From positions 1-32,819 of the forward strand of contig JAAXXS010000011.1 of NCBI GenBank assembly GCA_013334395.1: DNA of 32,819 bases, in the 5' to 3' direction. Below, in pieces: positions 5 to 29,043 of this stretch. Position numbers and translations under genes: made by a program. This DNA is from Holophagaceae bacterium. GTDB taxonomy: Bacteria > Acidobacteriota > Holophagae > Holophagales > Holophagaceae. Within the stretch, counting starts at the first letter, position 1; every line of letters begins with the position of its first letter. The notes under the pieces are model-generated. The model was not told where the DNA came from, made no database searches, and saw nothing but the letters and a program-made list of their open reading frames with translations.

Positions 5-123
5 TTCGTCGTGGCTTTTCCCCAGGGGTCACACCCGTTCCCATCCCGAACACGGCCGTTAAGACCTGGAGGGCCGATGATACTGCTCTGAACAGGAGTG
101 GAAAAGTAGGTCGCTGCGACGTT
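5..123 (+). rRNA. rrf: 5S ribosomal RNA
   Basis: The core matches bacterial 5S rRNA: the loop-B/C block around 36-70 with CCGAACACGG, and the 3' half with GATGATACTGCTCTGAAC and AAAGTAGGTCGCTG. Lining up CCGAAC (46-51) with the E. coli molecule puts the 5' end near position 5. Bases 7-11 can pair with 117-121 as the terminal helix. The gene is the promoter-distal end of an rRNA operon whose 23S gene lies outside the window. The ends are accurate to a few bases only. Confidence 0.95.
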
Positions 124-9748: not shown

Positions 9749-11164
9749 ATGCACACAGCTAGGGCGCTTCTGGTGGATGACGATCCCACCATCCTTGAGG
9801 TGGTTGGCACGCTGCTGTCCCGGCATGGCCACGAGGTGGTCGGCACGGGCTCGGGCCTGCGGGCCGCCCAGTTCCTGCGAACTGAGCACTTCGACCTCGC
9901 GGTGGTGGACCTCATGCTGCCGGACCTGAGCGGCCTGGAGCTGGCCCGCCAGGGCGTCGCCAAGCCTGACACCGTGGTGGTGGTGCTGTCGGGTACCACC
10001 TCGGTGGAGACGGCCCTGCAGGCCATGAAGATGGGCATCTACGACTACGTGCCCAAGCCCTTCCGCGTCGAGGAGCTGGAGCACACGCTGCTGCGCGCCA
10101 TCGAGAAGTCCCAGCTGAACCAGGAGAACAAGCGCCTGCGCGAGCAGATCCAGGGCAAGCTGACCGGGCCCCAGATGGTGGGCCGCTCCGAGACCTGGCA
10201 CAACCTGCAGTCCCTGCTCCGCCGGGTGGCGCCCTCGCCCTCCACGGTGCTGATCACCGGCCCCTCCGGCACCGGCAAGGAGCTGGCGGCCCGGGCCATC
10301 CACCAGTGGAGCCCGCGCGCCCAGGGGCCCTTCGTGCCCATCCACTGCGGCGCCATTCCCGAGACACTGCTGGAGGACGAACTCTTCGGCCATGTGCGCG
10401 GGGCCTACACCGACGCGCGCACCGACCGGCCCGGCCGGTTCCAGCAGGCCGAGGGAGGCACCCTCTTCCTCGACGAGATCGGCACCATGCCCATGAGCCT
10501 GCAGGTGAAGCTGCTGCGGGTCATCCAGGAGCGGGAGTTCACGCCGCTGGGGTCCACGCGCACGGTGAAGTCGGACTTCCGCCTGCTGGCGGCGACCAAT
10601 GAGGACCTGGGCTCCCTGGTGGAGCAGAAACGCTTCCGCGAGGACCTCTTCTACCGGCTCAATGTGATCCCCGTGCAGCTGCACCCGCTCCGCGAGCACC
10701 CCCAGGACATCCCGGTGCTGGTGGCGCACTTCACCCGGAAGTTCGCCCGGGAGCTCGGGCTGCCCCTGAAGCAGGTGGAGCCCACGGCCCTGCAGGCCAT
10801 GGAGGCCTATGGCTGGCCGGGCAATGTGCGCGAGCTGGAGAACGCGGTGGAGCGGGCCATGGCCCTGGGCTCAGATCCCGAGCGCCTGCTGCTCCAGGAC
10901 CTGCCCGCCTCCATCGCCGGCGTGCTGCCCTCGGTGGCCTTCCCGTCCCTCTCCCAGAACCAGGACCTGGGCCAGTTCCTGGCGGACCTCGAGCGCCACC
11001 TCATCCTCGAGTCGCTCCAGGCCACGGGCTGGAACAAGAGCGAGACCGCCCGCCGCCTGGGCATGCGCCGGACCACCCTCCTGCACCGGCTCCGGGCCCT
11101 GGGCATCCCCATGGACCCCATGGCCGAGGCCGAGTCCACCCTGGCTCGGGAGGCCAACCCATGA
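9749..11164 (+). CDS. NtrC-family sigma-54-dependent response regulator
   Basis: The protein has 471 residues. The receiver domain (about 1-120) has the acidic cluster DDD at 10-12, phosphoacceptor Asp54 ([11 protein letters not shown]) and the conserved Lys103 (YVPKPF). The AAA+ domain (about 142-370) has Walker A GPSGTGKE (171-178), the sigma-54 contact loop GAYTDA (218-223, a variant of GAFTGA) and Walker [10 protein letters not shown] Fis-type helix-turn-helix ends the protein ([20 protein letters not shown]). It activates sigma-54 promoters after phosphorylation; no partner kinase is visible. A much longer open frame extends upstream through comEC, but only the part from the ATG at 9749 has protein character. 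ATGA overlap couples it to the next gene. Confidence 0.95.
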
Positions 11165-11832
11165 AGCGGTTCGGCCGTCCGCTCCTGACGCTGCTGCTGG
11201 CCTGCGGGCCGCTGGGCGCCTGGTCGCCCAAGGTGCATGAGGCCCAGACCGCCAAGGCCATCCGCCTCGTGCCGCGACCCATGGCGGCCCTGCTCCGGGC
11301 CCACCCGCAGATCCTGCTGGAGAGCGCCCGGGGCGTGGCGAACGACCAGCCGCCCACCGTGGAGCAGGTGGAGGCCCAGTTCCGCACGGTCCTGCGCCTG
11401 AGCGAGGAAGGCCGCCGCCCCGAGGAGCTCGTCCGGGATCTGGGGGCCCTCGCCCATCAGGTCCAGCTGCTGCTGGATCCCTCGGCCACCGAGGGCCTGA
11501 GCCCGCTCCGGGAGTCCTTCGAGGCCTACGCGGACCAGCACCTGCCGCACCTGCTGGTGACCCAGGAAGCCTACTGGGCCGCCCAGGGCAGCCTTGATCC
11601 CGGTCCGCCCCTGCGCCGCTTCCTGGCGCTCAAGCAGGACCGCCACAAGCGCCTCCAGGAGCACTTCGATGGATCGGCGGGTCGCCGCATCGGTCCCTGG
11701 GACGAGCTCTCCCTGCCTTTCGCCCAGCTCCAGCTGGCCTTCTCCAACGGGGTCTACGCCACCGCCAACCTGTGGATCCTGCTCTGGCGGGCCGCGGGAG
11801 ATCAGTGGGAGCTTCCCCCGGGTGGCCCCTGA
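11161..11832 (+). CDS. exported protein, possible zinc-dependent phospholipase C/P1 nuclease-like
   Basis: The protein has 223 residues. An N-terminal signal peptide (KR, then LLTLLLACGPLGA) is followed by Trp-Ser at the likely cleavage point, then WSPKVHEAQTAKAI. In the zinc phospholipase C/P1 nuclease fold the mature N-terminal Trp is itself a zinc ligand, followed by His residues; here later LAHQVQLLLDP and DQHLPHLL could supply further ligands. The overall similarity is weak and not all ligands can be placed, so this is a fold-level guess. It starts inside the stop codon of the sigma-54 regulator (ATGA), which suggests co-expression with it. Otherwise it is an uncharacterised periplasmic protein. 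Confidence 0.6.
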   Translation: MKRFGRPLLTLLLACGPLGAWSPKVHEAQTAKAIRLVPRPMAALLRAHPQILLESARGVANDQPPTVEQVEAQFRTVLRLSEEGRRPEELVRDLGALAHQVQLLLDPSATEGLSPLRESFEAYADQHLPHLLVTQEAYWAAQGSLDPGPPLRRFLALKQDRHKRLQEHFDGSAGRRIGPWDELSLPFAQLQLAFSNGVYATANLWILLWRAAGDQWELPPGGP

Positions 11833-11912
11833 TCATTTCGCCTCCCGCCTGACCGCCAGCCGCACCGCTTTCCCTTCACCACCCTCAACCTCAATTCGTT
11901 CCGGAGATGGAC

Positions 11913-13712
11913 ATGGGTACCTATTCCCGCCTCGGGTCCTACCTGCTCGCCTCCGAGCTGACCAGTGATCCCTTCGGCGCCATCCACCGGGCCGTGCTCA
12001 TCTCCGGGAACGGGTTCGACCGGCACGTCCTGGCCCGCACCTTCTCGGAAGAGCTCTTCCAGGCGGGGCTGGACACCCGGCTGGCCGAGGCCGGGCGGGT
12101 GGTGCCCCTGCTGGGTGGGGCGCGGATCTTCGGTCTGGGCTACCAGATCGAGGACGGGAAGACGCCGCACCTGGCCTGGGACCATGTGGCCGGGCGGAGC
12201 CTGGCCCAGCTCATCGACCGGGCGCGCCAGGAGCAGGTTCCCTTCGGGGTCGATCACGCCCTGACGGTGATCCAGGGGGTGGCCCAGGGCCTCGTGCAGC
12301 TTCATGCCAAGGGGCTCAGCCATGGCGTCCTCAGTCCGCACAGCGTCTGGGTGAGCCTCGAAGGCTCCACCCAGATCCTGGATGCGCCCTACGCCCCCTT
12401 GGTGAAGAGCCTGCTGCCCAAGGCGCCGACCCTCCGGCAGAAGCTGGCCCCCTACCTCCAGGCTGAGGAGACGACCCCGCTCCAGCGGGACTTCTTCGCC
12501 CTGGGTGCGGTGCTCTACGAGCTGCTGACCTTCGAGCCCATTCCTGTGGGTGCCGACCTCCAGACGGTCCTCGAGCAGGCCACCTTGAAGGCCGCCCAGG
12601 AGGATGCGCCCTTGCCGGCGGAGCTCCGGGCCTTCCTTGGACGGCTGCTGCTGGGCCGCCAGCCCTTTGCCACGGTAGAGGCCTTCAGCGCGGAGCTGGA
12701 ACGGGTCCTCTACGACGGTGACTACAGCCCCACCACCTTCAACATGGCCTTCTTCATGCACACGCTGTTCCGGGAGGAGAACGACCGGGACGCCCTGGCC
12801 ATGAAGGCGGAGCAGGGGGACAACTACCTGGCCTACACCGCTGCGGGCGAGTCCCTGCGGAGCGGGGCCGCGCGCGTGCTGCCCAGCGAAGGCCAGCCCG
12901 AGTCCCCGGCTGGTTCGAAGCACACTCCGCTGCTCATCGGGGGCGGCCTTGTCGCGGTGGTGATCCTGGGCCTGGGCGCCATGTTCCTGCTCCGCCCCCG
13001 GACGGACCCAGCGGTACAGAAGCAGCTGGCGGAGCTGTCGGAGCTGTCCCTCCTGAAGAAGCAGCTGGAGCAGCAGAAGGCCGACCTCGATGCCAGGGCC
13101 AGGGCCGAGTCCGAGAAGACAGCCCAGCTTCAGAAGCAGCTGGGCGAGACCCGGTCGGTGGAGGACCGGGCGCGGATCCAGAAGCAGTTGGAGGAGGCCC
13201 GCCAGCGCAGCCAGGATGTGGAGCGCCAGCAGAAGCTGGCGGCGCAGCGTCTGGACGAGCAGCGGGCGGCCGAAGCCAAGACCACCGCGCTTCCTCCAGC
13301 CTCAGTCCCTGCACCCCCAGGCCCAACGCCGGAGGCCGCGCCGCCCCAACAGGAGGCTGCTAAGACCCAGGCCAGCCCCGCCCCGCCTCCGCCGGCTCCG
13401 GCCCCAGCCGCGCCGACTGTCAGCGAGCCGGCCCGCCTCATGAGCCAGGTGGCCCCGGTCTTCCCACCGCGCGCGCTGCAGACGCGCTGGGAGCTGAACC
13501 AGGACCATCTGGTCCGGCTGAAGGTCTACGTCAACGAGCAGGGGCAGCCCATGAAGGTGACCGTGATCGAAGGCGTGCCTGGCACCTACGGTTTTGACGA
13601 GGCCGCTGTCGAGGCCGCCAACAAGTCCACCTTCAGCCCCGCCACACGGGACGGCAAGCCGGTGCGCGGGTGGACCCCGGATATCGTCTACCGGTTCCAG
13701 AAGCGGCGCTAA
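11913..13712 (+). CDS. pseudokinase - transmembrane - coiled-coil - TonB C-terminal domain fusion
   Basis: The protein has 599 residues. Residues about 5-270 look like a Ser/Thr kinase fold: the catalytic-loop position reads LSHGVLSPHSVWV instead of HRD-x-K-x-x-N, and no DFG follows (ILDAPYA), so it should not phosphorylate. Then come a conserved-looking stretch SPTTFNMAFFMH, one membrane helix (about 339-361), a Gln/Lys/Glu-rich coiled coil (366-455), a Pro/Ala-rich linker (460-510) and a TonB-type C-terminal domain ('VAPVFPP…V-x-V-x-E-x-G…F…A…A'). The topology implies a cytosolic pseudokinase sensing something and a periplasmic TonB-like end. GGAG at 11903-11906 fits the ATG at 11913, not the ATG at 11907. 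It stands alone, 8 bp from the convergent rnhA. Confidence 0.85.
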   Translation: MGTYSRLGSYLLASELTSDPFGAIHRAVLISGNGFDRHVLARTFSEELFQAGLDTRLAEAGRVVPLLGGARIFGLGYQIEDGKTPHLAWDHVAGRSLAQLIDRARQEQVPFGVDHALTVIQGVAQGLVQLHAKGLSHGVLSPHSVWVSLEGSTQILDAPYAPLVKSLLPKAPTLRQKLAPYLQAEETTPLQRDFFALGAVLYELLTFEPIPVGADLQTVLEQATLKAAQEDAPLPAELRAFLGRLLLGRQPFATVEAFSAELERVLYDGDYSPTTFNMAFFMHTLFREENDRDALAMKAEQGDNYLAYTAAGESLRSGAARVLPSEGQPESPAGSKHTPLLIGGGLVAVVILGLGAMFLLRPRTDPAVQKQLAELSELSLLKKQLEQQKADLDARARAESEKTAQLQKQLGETRSVEDRARIQKQLEEARQRSQDVERQQKLAAQRLDEQRAAEAKTTALPPASVPAPPGPTPEAAPPQQEAAKTQASPAPPPPAPAPAAPTVSEPARLMSQVAPVFPPRALQTRWELNQDHLVRLKVYVNEQGQPMKVTVIEGVPGTYGFDEAAVEAANKSTFSPATRDGKPVRGWTPDIVYRFQKRR

Positions 13713-22688: not shown

Positions 22689-23570
22689 ATGAAGGGGATT
22701 GTGTTGGCGGGTGGGGCCGGCACGCGACTGCACCCGGCCACCTTGGCGATCTCAAAGCAGATGCTCCCCATCTACGACAAGCCGATGATCTACTATCCGT
22801 TGTCAACCCTCATGCTGGCGGGGATCAGGGACATCTTGATCATCTCCACGGCCATCGATGTCCCCCTCTTCCAGAACTTGTTGGGGGATGGCTCTGCCTG
22901 GGGTCTTCACCTCGAATATGCTGTCCAGGCAAGGCCGGAGGGACTGGCTCAGGCCTTCCTCATTGGAGAGTCCTTCATTGGGGGCGACACCTGCTGCTTG
23001 GTCCTGGGAGACAATCTGTTTTTCGGGCAGGGTTTCACCCCGCTGCTCCAGCAAGCCGCCCAACTGACCGAAGGCGCCCGGGTCTTTGCCCATCAGGTGA
23101 AGGATCCTGAGCGATTTGGTGTCGTCGAAGTGGACCCATCCTTCAGGGCCCTTTCCATCGAAGAGAAACCAACCGCCCCGAGATCCAACTGGGCGGTGAC
23201 GGGCCTGTATTTCTATGACTGTCATGTTGTGGCGCATGCCAAGTCTCTCAAACCCTCCAAGCGGGGCGAGCTGGAGATCACGGACTTGAATCAGATCTAC
23301 CTTGATCAAGGGGTGTTACAGGTCACGCCTCTCCGCCGTGGGTTTGCCTGGTTGGACACGGGAACCCACGAAAGCCTGCTGGAGGCCAGCGGGTTTGTGA
23401 GCACCATCCAGAAGCGCCAAGGCCTGATGGTCGCGTGTCCCGAAGAGATTGCCTTCAGCAATGGGTGGATCCCTGCTTCCCAGGTCGCGACCCTCGCCGA
23501 GAAGCACAGGAAAACGGAATACGGTAACTACTTGAAGAGGCTAATTCAGGATGAAGACTCGCGCTGTTGA
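22689..23570 (+). CDS. rfbA: glucose-1-phosphate thymidylyltransferase
   Basis: The protein has 293 residues (usual about 290). It makes dTDP-glucose from dTTP and glucose-1-phosphate, the first step of dTDP-6-deoxysugar synthesis. The nucleotide loop [11 protein letters not shown] (about 8-18), [26 protein letters not shown] with the metal-binding Asp, VTGLYFYD and [10 protein letters not shown] are all present. GGGAGG six bases before the ATG gives a clear start. Downstream the partner dehydratase (rfbB) is absent; an insertion-element remnant follows instead. The dTDP-sugar enzymes fdtA and fdtB lie about 6 kb away on the other strand. Confidence 0.96.
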
Positions 23571-23632
23571 AGTCATTAGGGCCAAAGCTGTTTACCGCGA
23601 GTCACGAGTGCGAGCAGGTATACCAACAACGG

Positions 23633-23755
23633 ACCGGCCTCGCGCTCTTTCAAGGCCAAGATGATCTGCTCCTCAGTGTATCTGCTCTTTTTCAAGGGGC
23701 CCCCCCAGAGGGGGAGGACTCACACTATCCTTGGTCTAGTTTTTTTTGGGGGGAC
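23633..23755 (-). mobile_element. remnant of an IS3-family insertion sequence (left end and start of orfA)
   Basis: On the minus strand from 23695 the reading is KKSRYTEEQIILALKEREAG, the N-terminus of IS3-family OrfA transposases, with TTG at the position normally ATG. Homology stops near 23633, where the frame continues as unrelated residues. Upstream of it GTCCCCCCAAAAAAAA (23755-23740) looks like an IS3-type terminal repeat followed by a non-coding leader. Only about 120 bp survive; the rest of orfA, all of orfB and the other end are missing. Confidence 0.75.
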
Positions 23756-23760
23756 GTCAA

Positions 23761-24121
23761 TACACCTCGGAATATGCCACTCTGTTACTATCCTGGACCA
23801 TCTTCTCTGGCGCGGTCATTTCCAATAGTGCTCATTTCGGCGAGGACTTGTTTGCCCGGTTCAATGCGGTTGCTGGTCACGACATCCGTATTGGGCGGCA
23901 CATGGAGATACCCGGGATGTAATACTCGGAGGCAAGATTCATATCTAAGATGAATTATTCGTAGGCATGGATGTGACAGTTAAGGAGAATACCACAATCG
24001 TTGATTGATGAATCCTCGGCAGGGGGTGGCGTTGTTCGAGGGCCTCCATGTTAAATTAATTGCTTTGGGGAATCCCACTCGTACCCTCAAGAAGCAAGAA
24101 TGGCATAGAGTATTTGAATGA
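23761..24121 (+). pseudogene. decayed hexapeptide-repeat sugar O/N-acyltransferase (NeuD/FdtC-like)
   Basis: Three frames carry pieces in the order of one left-handed beta-helix acyltransferase. From 23818: ISNSAHFGEDLFARFNAVAG then HDIRIGRHMEIPG. After a frame change at about 23916: DVILGGKIHI, an in-frame TAA, then DELFVGMDVTVKENTTIVD and a stop (24006-24008). After another frame change, 24032-24121 gives LFEGLHVKLIALGNPTRTLKK and ends at TGA, the typical 'GNPAR-x-x-K' tail of the family. With two frameshifts and at least one internal stop it cannot be functional. It lies between the IS remnant and an intact LpxA-like gene, in the dTDP-amino-sugar region where such an acetyltransferase would belong. 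Confidence 0.75.
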
Positions 24122-24145
24122 ATCTATCTAACCACTATGGGCCTA

Positions 24146-24165
24146 TATTATAAATTTCCATAATA
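24146..24165. promoter_or_regulatory. AT-rich inverted repeat upstream of the LpxA-like gene
   Basis: TATTAT (24146-24151) and ATAATA (24160-24165) are perfect 6-bp inverted repeats. The AT-rich stretch also offers -10-like sequences for the gene starting at 24220, but no -35 is convincing. Confidence 0.25.
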
Positions 24166-24219
24166 GTTCGTCCACGGATAGTTCTCTTCCGGCAGCGGTA
24201 GACTAGTTGAAGGGATGCG

Positions 24220-24900
24220 ATGAGTAACTCCATACACCCGACAGTAATTATTCAGGGCAAGGTTGAGTTAGGTGATAACAACGAAATAGGGCCATATTCT
24301 GTCATCTATGGTCCTATGACGTTAGGAGATGGGAACTGGATTGGCCCCCATGTGACGATTGGAACTCCTGGACAAGACACGAGAAACCCTAGGTATGATT
24401 GTTCTGAATCACGCATTGAAATAGGAAATGATAATATAATTCGAGAGTACACGGCCATACAAAAACCTTGTTATAGGGATATAACGCGGATCTGCAATAG
24501 GGTATTTCTAATGCAGAGTGTTCATGTGCCACACGATGCAATAATCGATGATGATGTAGTAATCACTCCAATGGTGGTCATGGGTGGAATCGTTAGACTA
24601 CTGAGAGGCGCTAATCTATCGGTAGGATGTTCTGTGCACCAATATTCGGTGATAGGTCATTTCTCAATCGTAGCAATGGGCGCTGCCTTGACAAAAAATT
24701 TAAAACCTTTTTCAAAATATATTCCCGGTAAAGATATTTCTGTTAATGATTATGCAATTAAGAAACATGGTTTTTCTGATGTGCGCGACCAAATAGTTGC
24801 CTATCTCCAAGAAGGGGCAAGGCCATCAGATCAGCGGTTGCAAGAAATGATTGAAGAATTTGAGCAACTCAGTGCCAAGTCTGGGAGAAAGGTCTATTAA
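24220..24900 (+). CDS. LpxA-like acyltransferase (left-handed beta-helix)
   Basis: The protein has 226 residues. The N-terminal two thirds are hexapeptide repeats (IHPTVIIQGKVELGDNNEIG, IGPHVTIGTPGQD). IREYTAI, LMQSVHVPHD and GCSVHQYSVIG follow the LpxA order, with His105 at the place of the LpxA catalytic His125. The C-terminal helices (DYAIKKHGFSDVRDQI) also match, but the protein is shorter than LpxA (262). It probably transfers an acyl group to a nucleotide-linked sugar for a surface glycan rather than serving as the housekeeping lipid A enzyme. Base composition is far more AT-rich than the flanking chromosome, indicating transfer. AAGGGA precedes the ATG by a few bases. Confidence 0.8.
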   Translation: MSNSIHPTVIIQGKVELGDNNEIGPYSVIYGPMTLGDGNWIGPHVTIGTPGQDTRNPRYDCSESRIEIGNDNIIREYTAIQKPCYRDITRICNRVFLMQSVHVPHDAIIDDDVVITPMVVMGGIVRLLRGANLSVGCSVHQYSVIGHFSIVAMGAALTKNLKPFSKYIPGKDISVNDYAIKKHGFSDVRDQIVAYLQEGARPSDQRLQEMIEEFEQLSAKSGRKVY

Positions 24901-24910
24901 ACATCACCTT

Positions 24911-24955
24911 TCACCGCGATGGTATTCCCTTGCAGGGGTGCAGTAGTGAGTTGAG
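24911..24955. repeat. shorter copy of a duplicated non-coding segment
   Basis: TCACCGC-(2)-TGGTATTCCCTT at 24911-24931 matches 25085-25105 at 19 of 21 positions. It is followed directly by GCAGGGGTGC (24932-24941) and TGAGTTGAG (24947-24955), which in the other copy lie about 90 bp further on. Confidence 0.5.
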
Positions 24956-25084
24956 ACTAGGGATAGTGGCAGCAAGTATTCAAAGGCAAATTATAGTTTA
25001 TAATGTTGGCCTGTAAATAACAATGGTATTGTGTGATTTATGCCACTACTTATAATTTTGTTGATGAATTGTTTTTCTGCCCCA

Positions 25085-25222
25085 TCACCGCCCTGGTATT
25101 CCCTTTGACACCCAATTGGAGTTCCTCGCTGTTTCAGGTGGATAGCGGGGTAAGGGCGCCCAGCGGCGACCCCCAATGGGGTGGTGCGTTTCCAGCAAGG
25201 GTGCGTGACTGTATGAGTTGAG
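25085..25222. repeat. longer copy of a duplicated non-coding segment
   Basis: It begins with TCACCGC-(2)-TGGTATTCCCTT (25085-25105) and ends with GCAAGGGTGC (25195-25204) and TGAGTTGAG (25214-25222). The order is the same as in the 24911-24955 copy but with an extra block of about 90 bp in between, as if the first copy had suffered an internal deletion. Confidence 0.5.
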
Positions 25223-25408
25223 CGCTGGTGAGGCTTGTGGGTCGCTTGAACTCAACGTAGGTAGCGGAGCGTGAAATTTCAAGACATCAGGGAAGCGCCA
25301 AACAGAACACATAAGCGATAATATAATAGGGCGCGCTCAATATCCCAGTTCAAATTTCTTCAGAAAGAATGAATGCATAGTTAATCTATCAACCTCGGAA
25401 CATTTGCA

Positions 25409-27289
25409 TTACATCTTAGGGGGCCCTGGGGCCAGAATTGGTTGGAGACCATCAATGGGCTTCATATCGCTGGGCAGGGCCAAAATGTTGAGTGATACCA
25501 TCCCAGGGAATATATTTTCTGGGCTTTCCTTGAAGTTCTCGGAAACAAAAAACGGAGATATGTGCCACCAGAGGCGGTAACCCATATCCATCACCTGCCT
25601 AATGAGCTCGGAAACATTTTCTGTTTGCTCATTTTCGATGTACATAATGGGCCGGCACCGCTCGATGGTATTTTTGGAACCCTCAAGGACCTTAGATATA
25701 AATCCTTCCACATGCAACCTGAGAAAATTCAGGCGCTCTAACTGAAAGTCATCTAGTTTCACAAATGGAACTGGGTCCACATCCTCGGTTGCATCAGTCC
25801 TGATTTTCGATTGAGGATAGGGTTGGGATGGATCTGGATGGGAGGTCCAGAATTCACCCTCGCTGTTTCCAAGTGCCATGGCATAAGTGAGGACATTAGG
25901 GATACTGTTAATTACGAGATTTGCATTTAGTATTTTGTAAAGGCGAGATTGGGGTTCAAAGGCGACTACGACGCCTCCAGGCTCCACCAATTGCGCGAAG
26001 GCCACGGTGTGAGAACCTATGTGGGCACCTGCATCAATAACGACATCTCCAGGAGTGATAACTTGTTTGAAAAGTTCCAACTCCTTCTGGCGGAACTCAC
26101 CATATTCCCTTAATGATGGTCCCGCGTACTCATCTTGAATTGAATAAAGCAAATGGCCTACCCGGCTACGAGTCAGTTCGACATCCGATGGAAAAGGCTT
26201 GAAGGATATGGGTTGGGTAACTGCCCCGTGTGTAGTAATGAGTCCAACTATTGCGGAGTCATTAGTGCAGGAAGTTTGCTGATTTGTGGGTTCTAATTTG
26301 ATTATCTGAGTGTATTTCTTGAGACGCGCAAGTTCTTGGCAGAAGGTGGCTGTTCGTAACAAGTTTTGTCTGGATTGATCGCGCGTCGTTCGTCGAAATA
26401 TTTCTGCGGGATGGTTTGGGGTCCATGATCGTGGAGTTCTGTGTCGAAACAGACATTGCCAATTGTTGGGAATATTCCATGAACCTTGAAATTTGTAGTC
26501 TCTTGAATTAACCAAATAGATCAATCCATCCGTTCGCACTTTTCGTTCAAAATACCCCAGGTAGCTGTCGACTAACTCCTGGTTCATCTCCTGCATGCTC
26601 TCTATGTTGATCCCTAGATCAAAGTTCGATAATTGCAATTGATCTAGATGCCAGGCTGGCACCACTAGAAAATCACAATCGCTATCTATGTCTCTGTCTG
26701 GCGAAAACAGCATGACTTTGCGGTCCGGAAATCGGTGTTTGAGATACTGATGGCAATACATCAGCGAGGCGGGCACAGCGTCAATGTTCACGTATTGCAT
26801 GTGGGGTCCACCGGTTAGTGTAAGAAATTCGGCTAAACGCCCAAACCCGCCACCCACCTCAAGAATTTTTAAATTGTCTTGAGAAATATCCAGAAAGGCA
26901 GAAAGCAAGAGATAGTCCATTAGGCTGCCAAGATCCATTACCCGCCAGTTCGCATCCCCCAACTCACCCAACGAAAGGCCCTGCAGCAATTGCTGGTGGT
27001 CTATCGATCTCAAGTACGTTTCATAACCGGAGATCATGCTGTGGGAGCCCGAAACTGATGTTATTTTGCTAACATCGGATAGGGAAAGTTCTCCAACACT
27101 ACCGCACCAATCTTTCATTAGATCCGACATGGAGCCTCTGGCCTGTTCCTTCGATAGCATCCAAGACGATGCCGGCCTACCCAAGGAGCTCAAACTATTT
27201 TCCATGTCATCCGTTAGGCTGTGGAGTAGATCCATATCTGCATCCACATCAAACCTGTCTGGTCCCCATTTAGGAAGTTCAATTTGCAT
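25409..27289 (-). CDS. two-domain methyltransferase: putative sugar O-methyltransferase fused to FkbM family
   Basis: The protein has 626 residues and two separate SAM-binding Rossmann domains. The first (about 110-340) has ILEVGGGFGRLAE at 143-155 and resembles 'putative sugar O-methyltransferase' proteins of polysaccharide clusters (NIESMQEM, LVNSRDYKFQGSW). The second (about 375-610) has DVVIDAGAHIGSHTVAF (415-431), VVAFEPQSRLYKILNANL and LHVEGFISKVLEGS, the FkbM pattern where the usual D-V-E-G reads H-V-E-G. It probably methylates two positions of a surface glycan. GAGGAGG sits about eight bases upstream of the ATG. Its composition is AT-richer than the backbone. Confidence 0.85.
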   Translation of the reverse strand: MQIELPKWGPDRFDVDADMDLLHSLTDDMENSLSSLGRPASSWMLSKEQARGSMSDLMKDWCGSVGELSLSDVSKITSVSGSHSMISGYETYLRSIDHQQLLQGLSLGELGDANWRVMDLGSLMDYLLLSAFLDISQDNLKILEVGGGFGRLAEFLTLTGGPHMQYVNIDAVPASLMYCHQYLKHRFPDRKVMLFSPDRDIDSDCDFLVVPAWHLDQLQLSNFDLGINIESMQEMNQELVDSYLGYFERKVRTDGLIYLVNSRDYKFQGSWNIPNNWQCLFRHRTPRSWTPNHPAEIFRRTTRDQSRQNLLRTATFCQELARLKKYTQIIKLEPTNQQTSCTNDSAIVGLITTHGAVTQPISFKPFPSDVELTRSRVGHLLYSIQDEYAGPSLREYGEFRQKELELFKQVITPGDVVIDAGAHIGSHTVAFAQLVEPGGVVVAFEPQSRLYKILNANLVINSIPNVLTYAMALGNSEGEFWTSHPDPSQPYPQSKIRTDATEDVDPVPFVKLDDFQLERLNFLRLHVEGFISKVLEGSKNTIERCRPIMYIENEQTENVSELIRQVMDMGYRLWWHISPFFVSENFKESPENIFPGMVSLNILALPSDMKPIDGLQPILAPGPPKM

Positions 27290-27445
27290 TGGTCTACCTC
27301 CTCTCTTGGATAGAGTCTTATCAATATCATTTGAATTACATCATACGAAGTAATCCGCCTAGATACCTAGTAGATGTGTGCCACCCCGGGTTCCACCCAC
27401 CATGACGACACTTGAAGGCATGTGTTTGGATGTAGTCAACAACAC

Positions 27446-28978
27446 CTAGAGAAGCACTCGTAACCGGTCCAGACTCTCCATTCCCACCTCGAAATCAATG
27501 TGAAGGTCGGCTGTGGGTGGACCAAAGGCTATGTAGTCCATCTCGTGGCCCAGAGCCCGAGCCAAGTTGGGGAAGTAGCTGTGAGGCCCCGGATCCTCCG
27601 GGTTTCCGGAAAGGACGATAATGTTGGCCCCCTTTGGGGCGAACAGCATATTGGCCAGTCCCGCCCCCGTTTGCCCCACGATAACCGAAGCTTTCGAAAA
27701 GAGATCTATCTGATCGTTGAGCGGGATTTGCTCTGGCTGTGTTATCACATAGCCTGCATCCGAGAAATAAGCAACCACTGCATCGCGGTTGGTCACCCGC
27801 CTTCGAGCAGAGTTGCGATCAACGAACACCTTCACCCGTTTATCCTCCGTACTTCCGATGCCCAAGCTCGCAATTCTCGCCCTCAGCGAGGCAAGGGCTC
27901 CTGGCGAAAAGAGGAGGTCGGAGGGGGAATAATGGACCGGTTTCCCGCACCTTGATTTCAAGTATTCGAAGGGGACGGTCGTGGTGGGCGTAAACCAGAT
28001 GGCCTCGTCCACCAGCGTCTTAGATGAAATGATTTCGATGGGTCGCCCGGGTGACTTCACTAGATTAAGAAACTGAATCGTCTGCTCGGCGAACGGCTTG
28101 CTGATGAGAAGAGGCACGTGGGTCGGAATCATCAGCTCTTCCACCAAACTGACAATGGGCATGATTTCGGTCAGGAAGTGTGCCCAGTTGCTGATGGCGT
28201 AGGATGTCAAAATGACACCTGTCTTTAAGTGCCCGAGAACAACATCCTTCGAGACAAGAAGCAAGTCGCCGCCAGCCATGGGGATCGATCGCCTGGTGAA
28301 CGTGTCGTAGAATAGGTGTTCCTCAAGATTGAAATAATCAGGGATGATTCCTTTATCGCCCATGATTACCGTGTCTGAATAGGGACTGACGACGGCCCCG
28401 CTCACATTGAACATGGAGAGAGCGGGGAAAAATGTGGCCGGAGCAGCCGGGGCTTCCATATTGAAATACTGGACCCTGGTAGGTTGGATTTCTTCCCTTG
28501 GCGTGATTTGGACCTGTTGTGGAAGAACACTTTGTCTCATTAGCTGGCAAAATTCTGGGTATTCAATTTTCGGTCCTCCAACTCTTGACTTGAAGAAATC
28601 CTCGGCCCGTTTCGAAGGTTCTGTCATTCCCGAAAGGAACTCCATAAACGCCTCAAGGACATTTGGAGCATGAGGTCCAGAAAGTTTGTTCTTCCAAATA
28701 TCCAGGGCCTCCGAGTAGTTGCCCATCATCATTAAAAGATTGGTCAAGTCCAGAGTGGATACAAAGGTAATTTTTTCCTTCCGTGCAGCCATCCTAAAGA
28801 ACCCAAGCGCCGTTTTGTAGTCGTTATTGTAAAAAGAAAATATAGCCGCCTCGTAATAGGGCTCCCATAGAGAAGTGCCTTTCAGGATTAGATCCAGTAC
28901 CATCTGATAGGCTTCTTGTGCCTTTCCCTCTTTGACGAACTGCCGCGATTCAGCGTATTTCTCTACATCATCACGCAT
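27446..28978 (-). CDS. TPR-containing glycosyltransferase family 61-like protein
   Basis: The protein has 510 residues. Residues 1-120 form TPR-like helices (AQEAYQMVLDLILKG, NDYKTALGFFRMAARKEK, GNYSEALDIWKNKL). The C-terminal part (about 220-500) fits the GT61/DUF563 family: ISNWAHFLTEIMPIVSLVEE, then VFVDRNSARRRVTNRDAVVA and SVIVGQTGAGLANMLFAPKG, the donor-binding half. GT61 enzymes add pentoses, GlcNAc or related sugars. GGGAG five bases before the ATG fixes the start. It is upstream of the double methyltransferase on the same strand (156 bp apart), probably one transcript. Confidence 0.82.
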   Translation of the reverse strand: MRDDVEKYAESRQFVKEGKAQEAYQMVLDLILKGTSLWEPYYEAAIFSFYNNDYKTALGFFRMAARKEKITFVSTLDLTNLLMMMGNYSEALDIWKNKLSGPHAPNVLEAFMEFLSGMTEPSKRAEDFFKSRVGGPKIEYPEFCQLMRQSVLPQQVQITPREEIQPTRVQYFNMEAPAAPATFFPALSMFNVSGAVVSPYSDTVIMGDKGIIPDYFNLEEHLFYDTFTRRSIPMAGGDLLLVSKDVVLGHLKTGVILTSYAISNWAHFLTEIMPIVSLVEELMIPTHVPLLISKPFAEQTIQFLNLVKSPGRPIEIISSKTLVDEAIWFTPTTTVPFEYLKSRCGKPVHYSPSDLLFSPGALASLRARIASLGIGSTEDKRVKVFVDRNSARRRVTNRDAVVAYFSDAGYVITQPEQIPLNDQIDLFSKASVIVGQTGAGLANMLFAPKGANIIVLSGNPEDPGPHSYFPNLARALGHEMDYIAFGPPTADLHIDFEVGMESLDRLRVLL

Positions 28979-29043
28979 GGATACTCCCAGAGGACCGAAC
29001 CTTCAGATGGCAGGATGAACAAGAAAGGCCGCGCCGGTAGGAA

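Follow-up and report, generated by a model that had tools for sequence, protein, structure and literature searches.

An ancient pseudokinase-TonB_C protein family of Acidobacteriota and its relatedness to a receiver-linked Ser/Thr kinase

In the Agl-Glt gliding machinery of Myxococcus, GltG (PglI, MXAN_4867) consists of a cytosolic FHA domain (PF00498), an internal membrane helix, a proline-rich periplasmic arm and a terminal TonB C-terminal domain (TonB_C); it binds AglR, a TolR-like motor subunit, and is encoded in a gene cluster with the AglRQS motor (PMC3169522). A model in which GltG and GltJ pull is discussed in PMC9389320. Two further TonB-like proteins that are not devoted to siderophore uptake, GltJ/AgmX and SjdR, likewise carry an internal transmembrane helix behind a cytosolic N-terminal part; SjdR, which lacks a complete TonB domain, acts in septum structure rather than in transport (PMC8262864). 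In canonical TonB the membrane anchor is short and N-terminal, and its gene often accompanies exbB and exbD. The defining features of GltJ/AgmX are a zinc ribbon and a GYF domain. Bacterial pseudokinases (ActPs1-3, GLW, DLHK, CP1, DYD, and EssB/YukC, which is a known membrane scaffold) keep the kinase fold with the catalytic motifs lost, and in GLW and ActPs2 the membrane attachment is C-terminal to the kinase; in the GLW pseudokinases GLW replaces HRD and LLLL/W replaces the beta3 Lys, and none of the families in that review is reported there to carry TonB_C or to come from Acidobacteriota (PMC12599244). Outside a few model phyla, it is not settled how cells coordinate the inner with the outer membrane.

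The window considered here, that is, the whole stretch of 32,819 nucleotides that was analysed, comes from a Holophagaceae bacterium and contains a gene (11907..13712, on the + strand, like all parts of the protein and the two upstream genes located below) for a protein of 601 amino acids in which a pseudokinase, a transmembrane helix, a coiled coil and TonB_C follow one another. Position 11913, the start in the initial annotation, is the second in-frame ATG and the one used by most relatives (MGTYTRLG...), and either start is possible. The AlphaFold2 model, with 78 relatives as input, has a mean pLDDT of 85.6 (mostly >90 at both ends) and shows in order a kinase fold (residues 7-270, 11925..12716), a helix (277-303), a low-confidence stretch that includes the membrane helix, coiled-coil helices (368-460), disorder and a compact domain (510-597). 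The initial annotation had placed a kinase fold in residues 5-270 and a TonB-type domain at the C-terminus, and structure prediction bears out both: the kinase part matches solved kinases with Z 22.4 over 259 residues (rmsd 3.1), and the C-terminal domain (13434..13697), folded separately with pLDDT 89.8, matches TonB C-terminal domains with Z up to 10.6 over 85 residues (rmsd 2.3), the top 14 rows of this fold search all being TonB or TonB homologues, followed by TolA. Pfam TonB_C passes its cut-off (residues 517-596, E 2e-9) and is present in 72 of the 78 relatives. The separate folding and the fold search also ruled out an AgmX/adhesion-type end, and since the kinase fold is there and such an end is not, the original observation stands. 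An NCBIfam match to the MADS6 defence kinase (E 3e-12) reaches 45.6 against a curated cut-off of 460 bits and reflects only the shared kinase fold.

Between the two folded ends, a single transmembrane helix, LLIGGGLVAVVILGLGAMF, is predicted at residues 342-360 (12930..12986, Kyte-Doolittle 2.47), within which the model shows a helix at 349-360. It is followed by the long coiled-coil helices 368-414 and 418-460 (13008..13286), predicted to be periplasmic, and by a Pro/Ala-rich disordered linker (461-505, 13287..13421, pLDDT <50), which is the least conserved region. This agrees with the single internal membrane anchor of the initial annotation and would place the kinase fold in the cytosol and the TonB end in the periplasm; the charges flanking the helix favour neither orientation. 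The same annotation treated such an anchor, preceded by a kinase-like part, as unusual for TonB-like proteins; the arrangement itself is supported, but it has a precedent in GltG, which is built as FHA-TM-TonB_C (PMC3169522).

The kinase fold is kept and its catalytic motifs are lost. In the window protein HRD is changed to HGV within the degenerate catalytic loop LSHGVLSPHSVWV (residues 137-149, 12315..12353), where the HRD Asp, the Lys and the Asn have all disappeared, DFG is changed to DAP (residues 159-161, 12381..12389) and the beta3 lysine to Arg44. The survey of homologues extends the HRD/DFG loss to all 78 aligned relatives, none of which has HRD, or DFG at its position; neither motif was found in further members from other families. 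The replacement of HRD, HG(V/F/L), is itself conserved (H139 in 74, G140 in 77 and P144 in 77 of the 78), the DFG position is mostly DAP in the Geothrix group and GFG/GFA elsewhere, the beta3 position is mostly Arg, and the structural alpha-F Asp195 is retained in 77/78. Judged from these motifs, the catalytic loss is ancient and complete across the pseudokinase family.

How, then, does the protein compare with the systems described above? With GltG it shares a cytosolic signalling-type domain, the internal helix, the proline-rich arm and the terminal TonB_C, but it has a pseudokinase in place of FHA, with no Pfam match to FHA, and no cluster with a motor was seen. Unlike GltJ/AgmX and SjdR it has a kinase fold, and no zinc ribbon or GYF match was obtained in Pfam at E 0.1. 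The C-terminal fold and the proline-rich arm are those of the E. coli, Pseudomonas and Neisseria TonB proteins, whereas the anchor lies behind the kinase fold and linkage to exb genes is missing. As in GLW and ActPs2, its membrane attachment lies C-terminal to the kinase part. Among the pseudokinase families of PMC12599244 the comparison of motifs was made with GLW, from which the window family differs in having HG(V/F/L) at HRD and mostly Arg at beta3. The protein is thus neither a canonical TonB, nor GltG, nor an active kinase, nor a GLW pseudokinase; by analogy, it could work like GltG and possibly like kinase/pseudokinase receptor pairs. The initial annotation called such a device little described, and our literature searches, which most subscription papers lay outside, likewise returned no account of the pseudokinase and TonB combination or of the signature motif described below. 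The pseudokinase-TonB_C protein is real and conserved and apparently undescribed; it adds to the trans-envelope TonB-like proteins, extends pseudokinase biology to them, and may carry signals or force across the envelope by a route that we have not found described.

The family is ancient and usually single-copy in Acidobacteriota. Of 80 sampled families, about 24 have the full architecture, normally with one copy per genome (a profile search of 297 Acidobacteriota genomes, after which sequences from a sample of the full-length matches were inspected); nearly all genomes of the same genus, Geothrix, contain it, as do two further families of the class. A single genome, G227, has two family copies in tandem (L095, 1543-3639 and 3648-5600), the second with the diverged signature SPSPFDLACF. 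The best-conserved stretch of the whole protein is neither of the folded ends, but the helix immediately C-terminal to the kinase fold, GDYSPTTFNMAFFMHTLFR (residues 271-289, 12717..12773), which defines a new signature, G-[ED]-YSPTTFN-[LM]-AFFMH-x-LFR. Mean identity is 65% in the signature, 21% and 29% in the kinase lobes, 19% in the coiled coil and 29% in TonB_C; these values were recomputed from 23 divergent members found by profile, because the set found by the pattern is biased toward the motif. The codons of the signature vary, which indicates that selection acts on the protein. Its DNA pattern was detected in 32/297 genomes, never more than once per genome. When 84,980 species were scanned for the signature, 168 stretches matched, of which 159 belong to relatives. 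The 80 best that were kept seem all to come from Acidobacteriota, although two of them bear other labels, probably in error: L190 (labelled Bacillota) and L183 (labelled Deltaproteobacteria, but 41% identical to the protein of the window) are most likely mislabelled metagenome-assembled genomes.

Related to the pseudokinase is a second protein of the same phylum, hereafter the sister, which combines a receiver domain (REC) with a Ser/Thr kinase carrying HRDVSPQN and DFG and, in many families, ends in TonB_C. Its intact motifs suggest that it is active. The sister was found in 90/297 Acidobacteriota genomes, one copy each; with TonB_C it is 930-1300 residues long (for example L195, 2373-5333; L196, 2860-6015; L197, 2296-6207; L198, 953-4378; L206, 709-3699), and its kinase domain is highly conserved (65% mean column identity). 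It differs from the window protein in the receiver domain, the intact motifs and the absence of the TFNxA signature. In a tree of kinase domains all pseudokinases form one clade (100/100 support), and a branch with 100/100 support separates pseudokinases and REC-kinases together from 26 other kinases, although those 26 were drawn from no more than four genomes and the branches of the pseudokinases are long. By eye, the pseudokinase helix, YSPTTFNLAFFMHxLFRE, can be aligned with the REC-kinase sequence PTPxxxDLAxYMxxLFxE, and the other kinases are without it. In a TonB_C tree that has few columns, the domains from the two proteins intermingle according to lineage, and families f5 and f31 form a joint clade (100/99); in genome G043 they are 58% identical to each other, compared with 30% on average to others. 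Counted by family, 22 have both proteins, two the pseudokinase only, six the sister only and 50 neither (Fisher p 3e-12, for families that are not independent and were checked to uneven depth). A reduced relative with a genome of 1.2 Mb (G211) has neither protein.

Relatedness and co-occurrence are shown by computation, as are the architecture, the folds, the loss of the catalytic motifs and the conserved helix. In addition, among the live kinases sampled, those of Holophagaceae stop at their own membrane helix (in the same genome as the Geothrix pseudokinase the sister is a 659-aa frame on contig C20), and those of f3 (genome G026) and f39 are without TonB_C; in each of these families the pseudokinase keeps that domain. 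Together with the co-occurrence and the relatedness, its presence in the dead member where the live one lacks it suggests that the two form a pair, the periplasmic arm of which can come from the dead member. We tentatively prefer the reading, itself held at somewhat less than even confidence, that the protein is a catalytically dead, envelope-spanning partner of the active sister. In this reading the protein is a dead paralogue of the sister; its pseudokinase would transfer no phosphate and would act as a cytosolic protein-binding module, whose likeliest partner is the sister; the two proteins would bind each other by way of the conserved juxta-kinase helix. One helix would anchor the protein, an arm of 130-230 residues of coiled coil and proline-rich linker would span the periplasm, and the TonB domain at its tip would bind a periplasmic or outer-membrane ligand, so that information would flow inward and the state of the envelope would be reported to the sister. 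The keeping of the kinase fold with catalysis lost in every member counts in favour of the dead partner. On the other hand, in six families the REC-kinase occurs with no pseudokinase detected and in two families the reverse holds; the two genes were not neighbours in any locus inspected.

A more specific form, which we consider possible but doubtful, is that of a kinase/pseudokinase receptor pair with TonB sensor ends, in which the pseudokinase extends to the outer membrane, recognises the TonB-box-type ligands that the import machinery also reads, and controls the receiver-linked Ser/Thr kinase. If this were true, the TonB domain would be a signal receptor instead of, or besides, a force arm. 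Either way, a phylum-wide conserved and usually single-copy protein joins a kinase-like domain in the cytosol physically to a TonB domain, in cells that also hold its live sister kinase; this questions whether TonB_C proteins should by default be annotated as energy transducers, and as Geothrix species are cultured, named targets for experiments are available.

Alternatively, the arm could transmit force rather than information: a TonB/GltG-like arm would be driven by an ExbB/ExbD motor (TolQR, AglRQS-like), with the pseudokinase in a regulatory role, replacing the FHA domain of GltG. The C-terminal domain has a true TonB fold, GltG has the same layout of cytosolic domain, membrane helix, linker and TonB_C and binds AglR (PMC3169522), and the pulling model of GltG and GltJ (PMC9389320) offers a parallel; moreover, each of the 26 genomes tested (26/26) has 3-6 ExbD/TolR genes, and in three families exbD-exbD-tonB is found a few kb or less from the sister, on one contig with it. 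However, the initial annotation reported that no exbB, exbD or receptor gene adjoins the pseudokinase gene, which holds for the window, and no exb gene occurs in any pseudokinase neighbourhood inspected. The source genome has its own tonB-exbB-exbD-exbD cluster, separately on contig C261, so that its own TonB, unlike the pseudokinase, is encoded with exb genes, and the TonB proteins of exb operons form a clade of their own in the TonB_C tree. The predicted membrane helix lacks the Ser/His pair that the helix of E. coli TonB has, but this does not discriminate, because the genome's own TonB helix seems to be without it too. We consider a force transducer possible but less likely than the partner of the sister.

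The neighbourhood of the gene bears on a further explanation, namely that the protein serves envelope assembly (peptidoglycan, lipopolysaccharide export) as a structural tether or scaffold, has no signalling role, and binds synthesis enzymes in the cytosol and a partner in the envelope. The pseudokinase gene adjoins mltG/yceG in seven other families, mostly together with ruvX and in several also with lptD; in f8 it is close to lptB/lptC-like genes and in f3 close to ddl and murF-like genes. These neighbours, the single-copy, housekeeping-like conservation and the precedent of the pseudokinase EssB/YukC (PMC12599244) speak for a scaffold. In Holophagaceae, by contrast, the neighbour is a response regulator: in the window an NtrC-type regulator (REC-AAA-Fis, 9749..11164) overlaps by 4 bases the gene for a 223-aa predicted secreted protein (11161..11832), which gave no Pfam or NCBIfam match, is a neighbour only in Holophagaceae and ends 74 bases upstream of the pseudokinase gene, and this order recurs in the Holophagaceae loci inspected. 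In f39 the gene lies by groEL, and in f2 by the ATP synthase genes. As neighbours differ by family, there is no fixed operon partner and hence no fixed functional one, and a pure tether would leave the co-occurrence and shared descent with the receiver-kinase unexplained. We hold the scaffold to be about as likely as the force transducer. Finally, that this is an ordinary decayed kinase gene or an unimportant chance joining of domains is highly improbable: Pfam Pkinase does fall below its cut-off in the window protein (E 4e-4), but the architecture is kept across the phylum, which excludes a chance reading frame, and the motif is conserved with varied codons in single-copy genes with intact frames.

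Some further observations concern the surroundings of the gene. In f2 (L102, L103, L104) it directly precedes the ATP synthase genes (atpF onward) in the same orientation, and in the window rnhA is convergent to it. A region of the window at 23000-29000 resembles a polysaccharide locus that was acquired: G+C falls there from about 0.65 to 0.42-0.51, and the genes are methyltransferase-like, TPR and of surface-sugar type. The contig starts with a 5S rRNA (window 7-122), which is probably why the pseudokinase gene sits about 12 kb from a contig end in many Geothrix assemblies.
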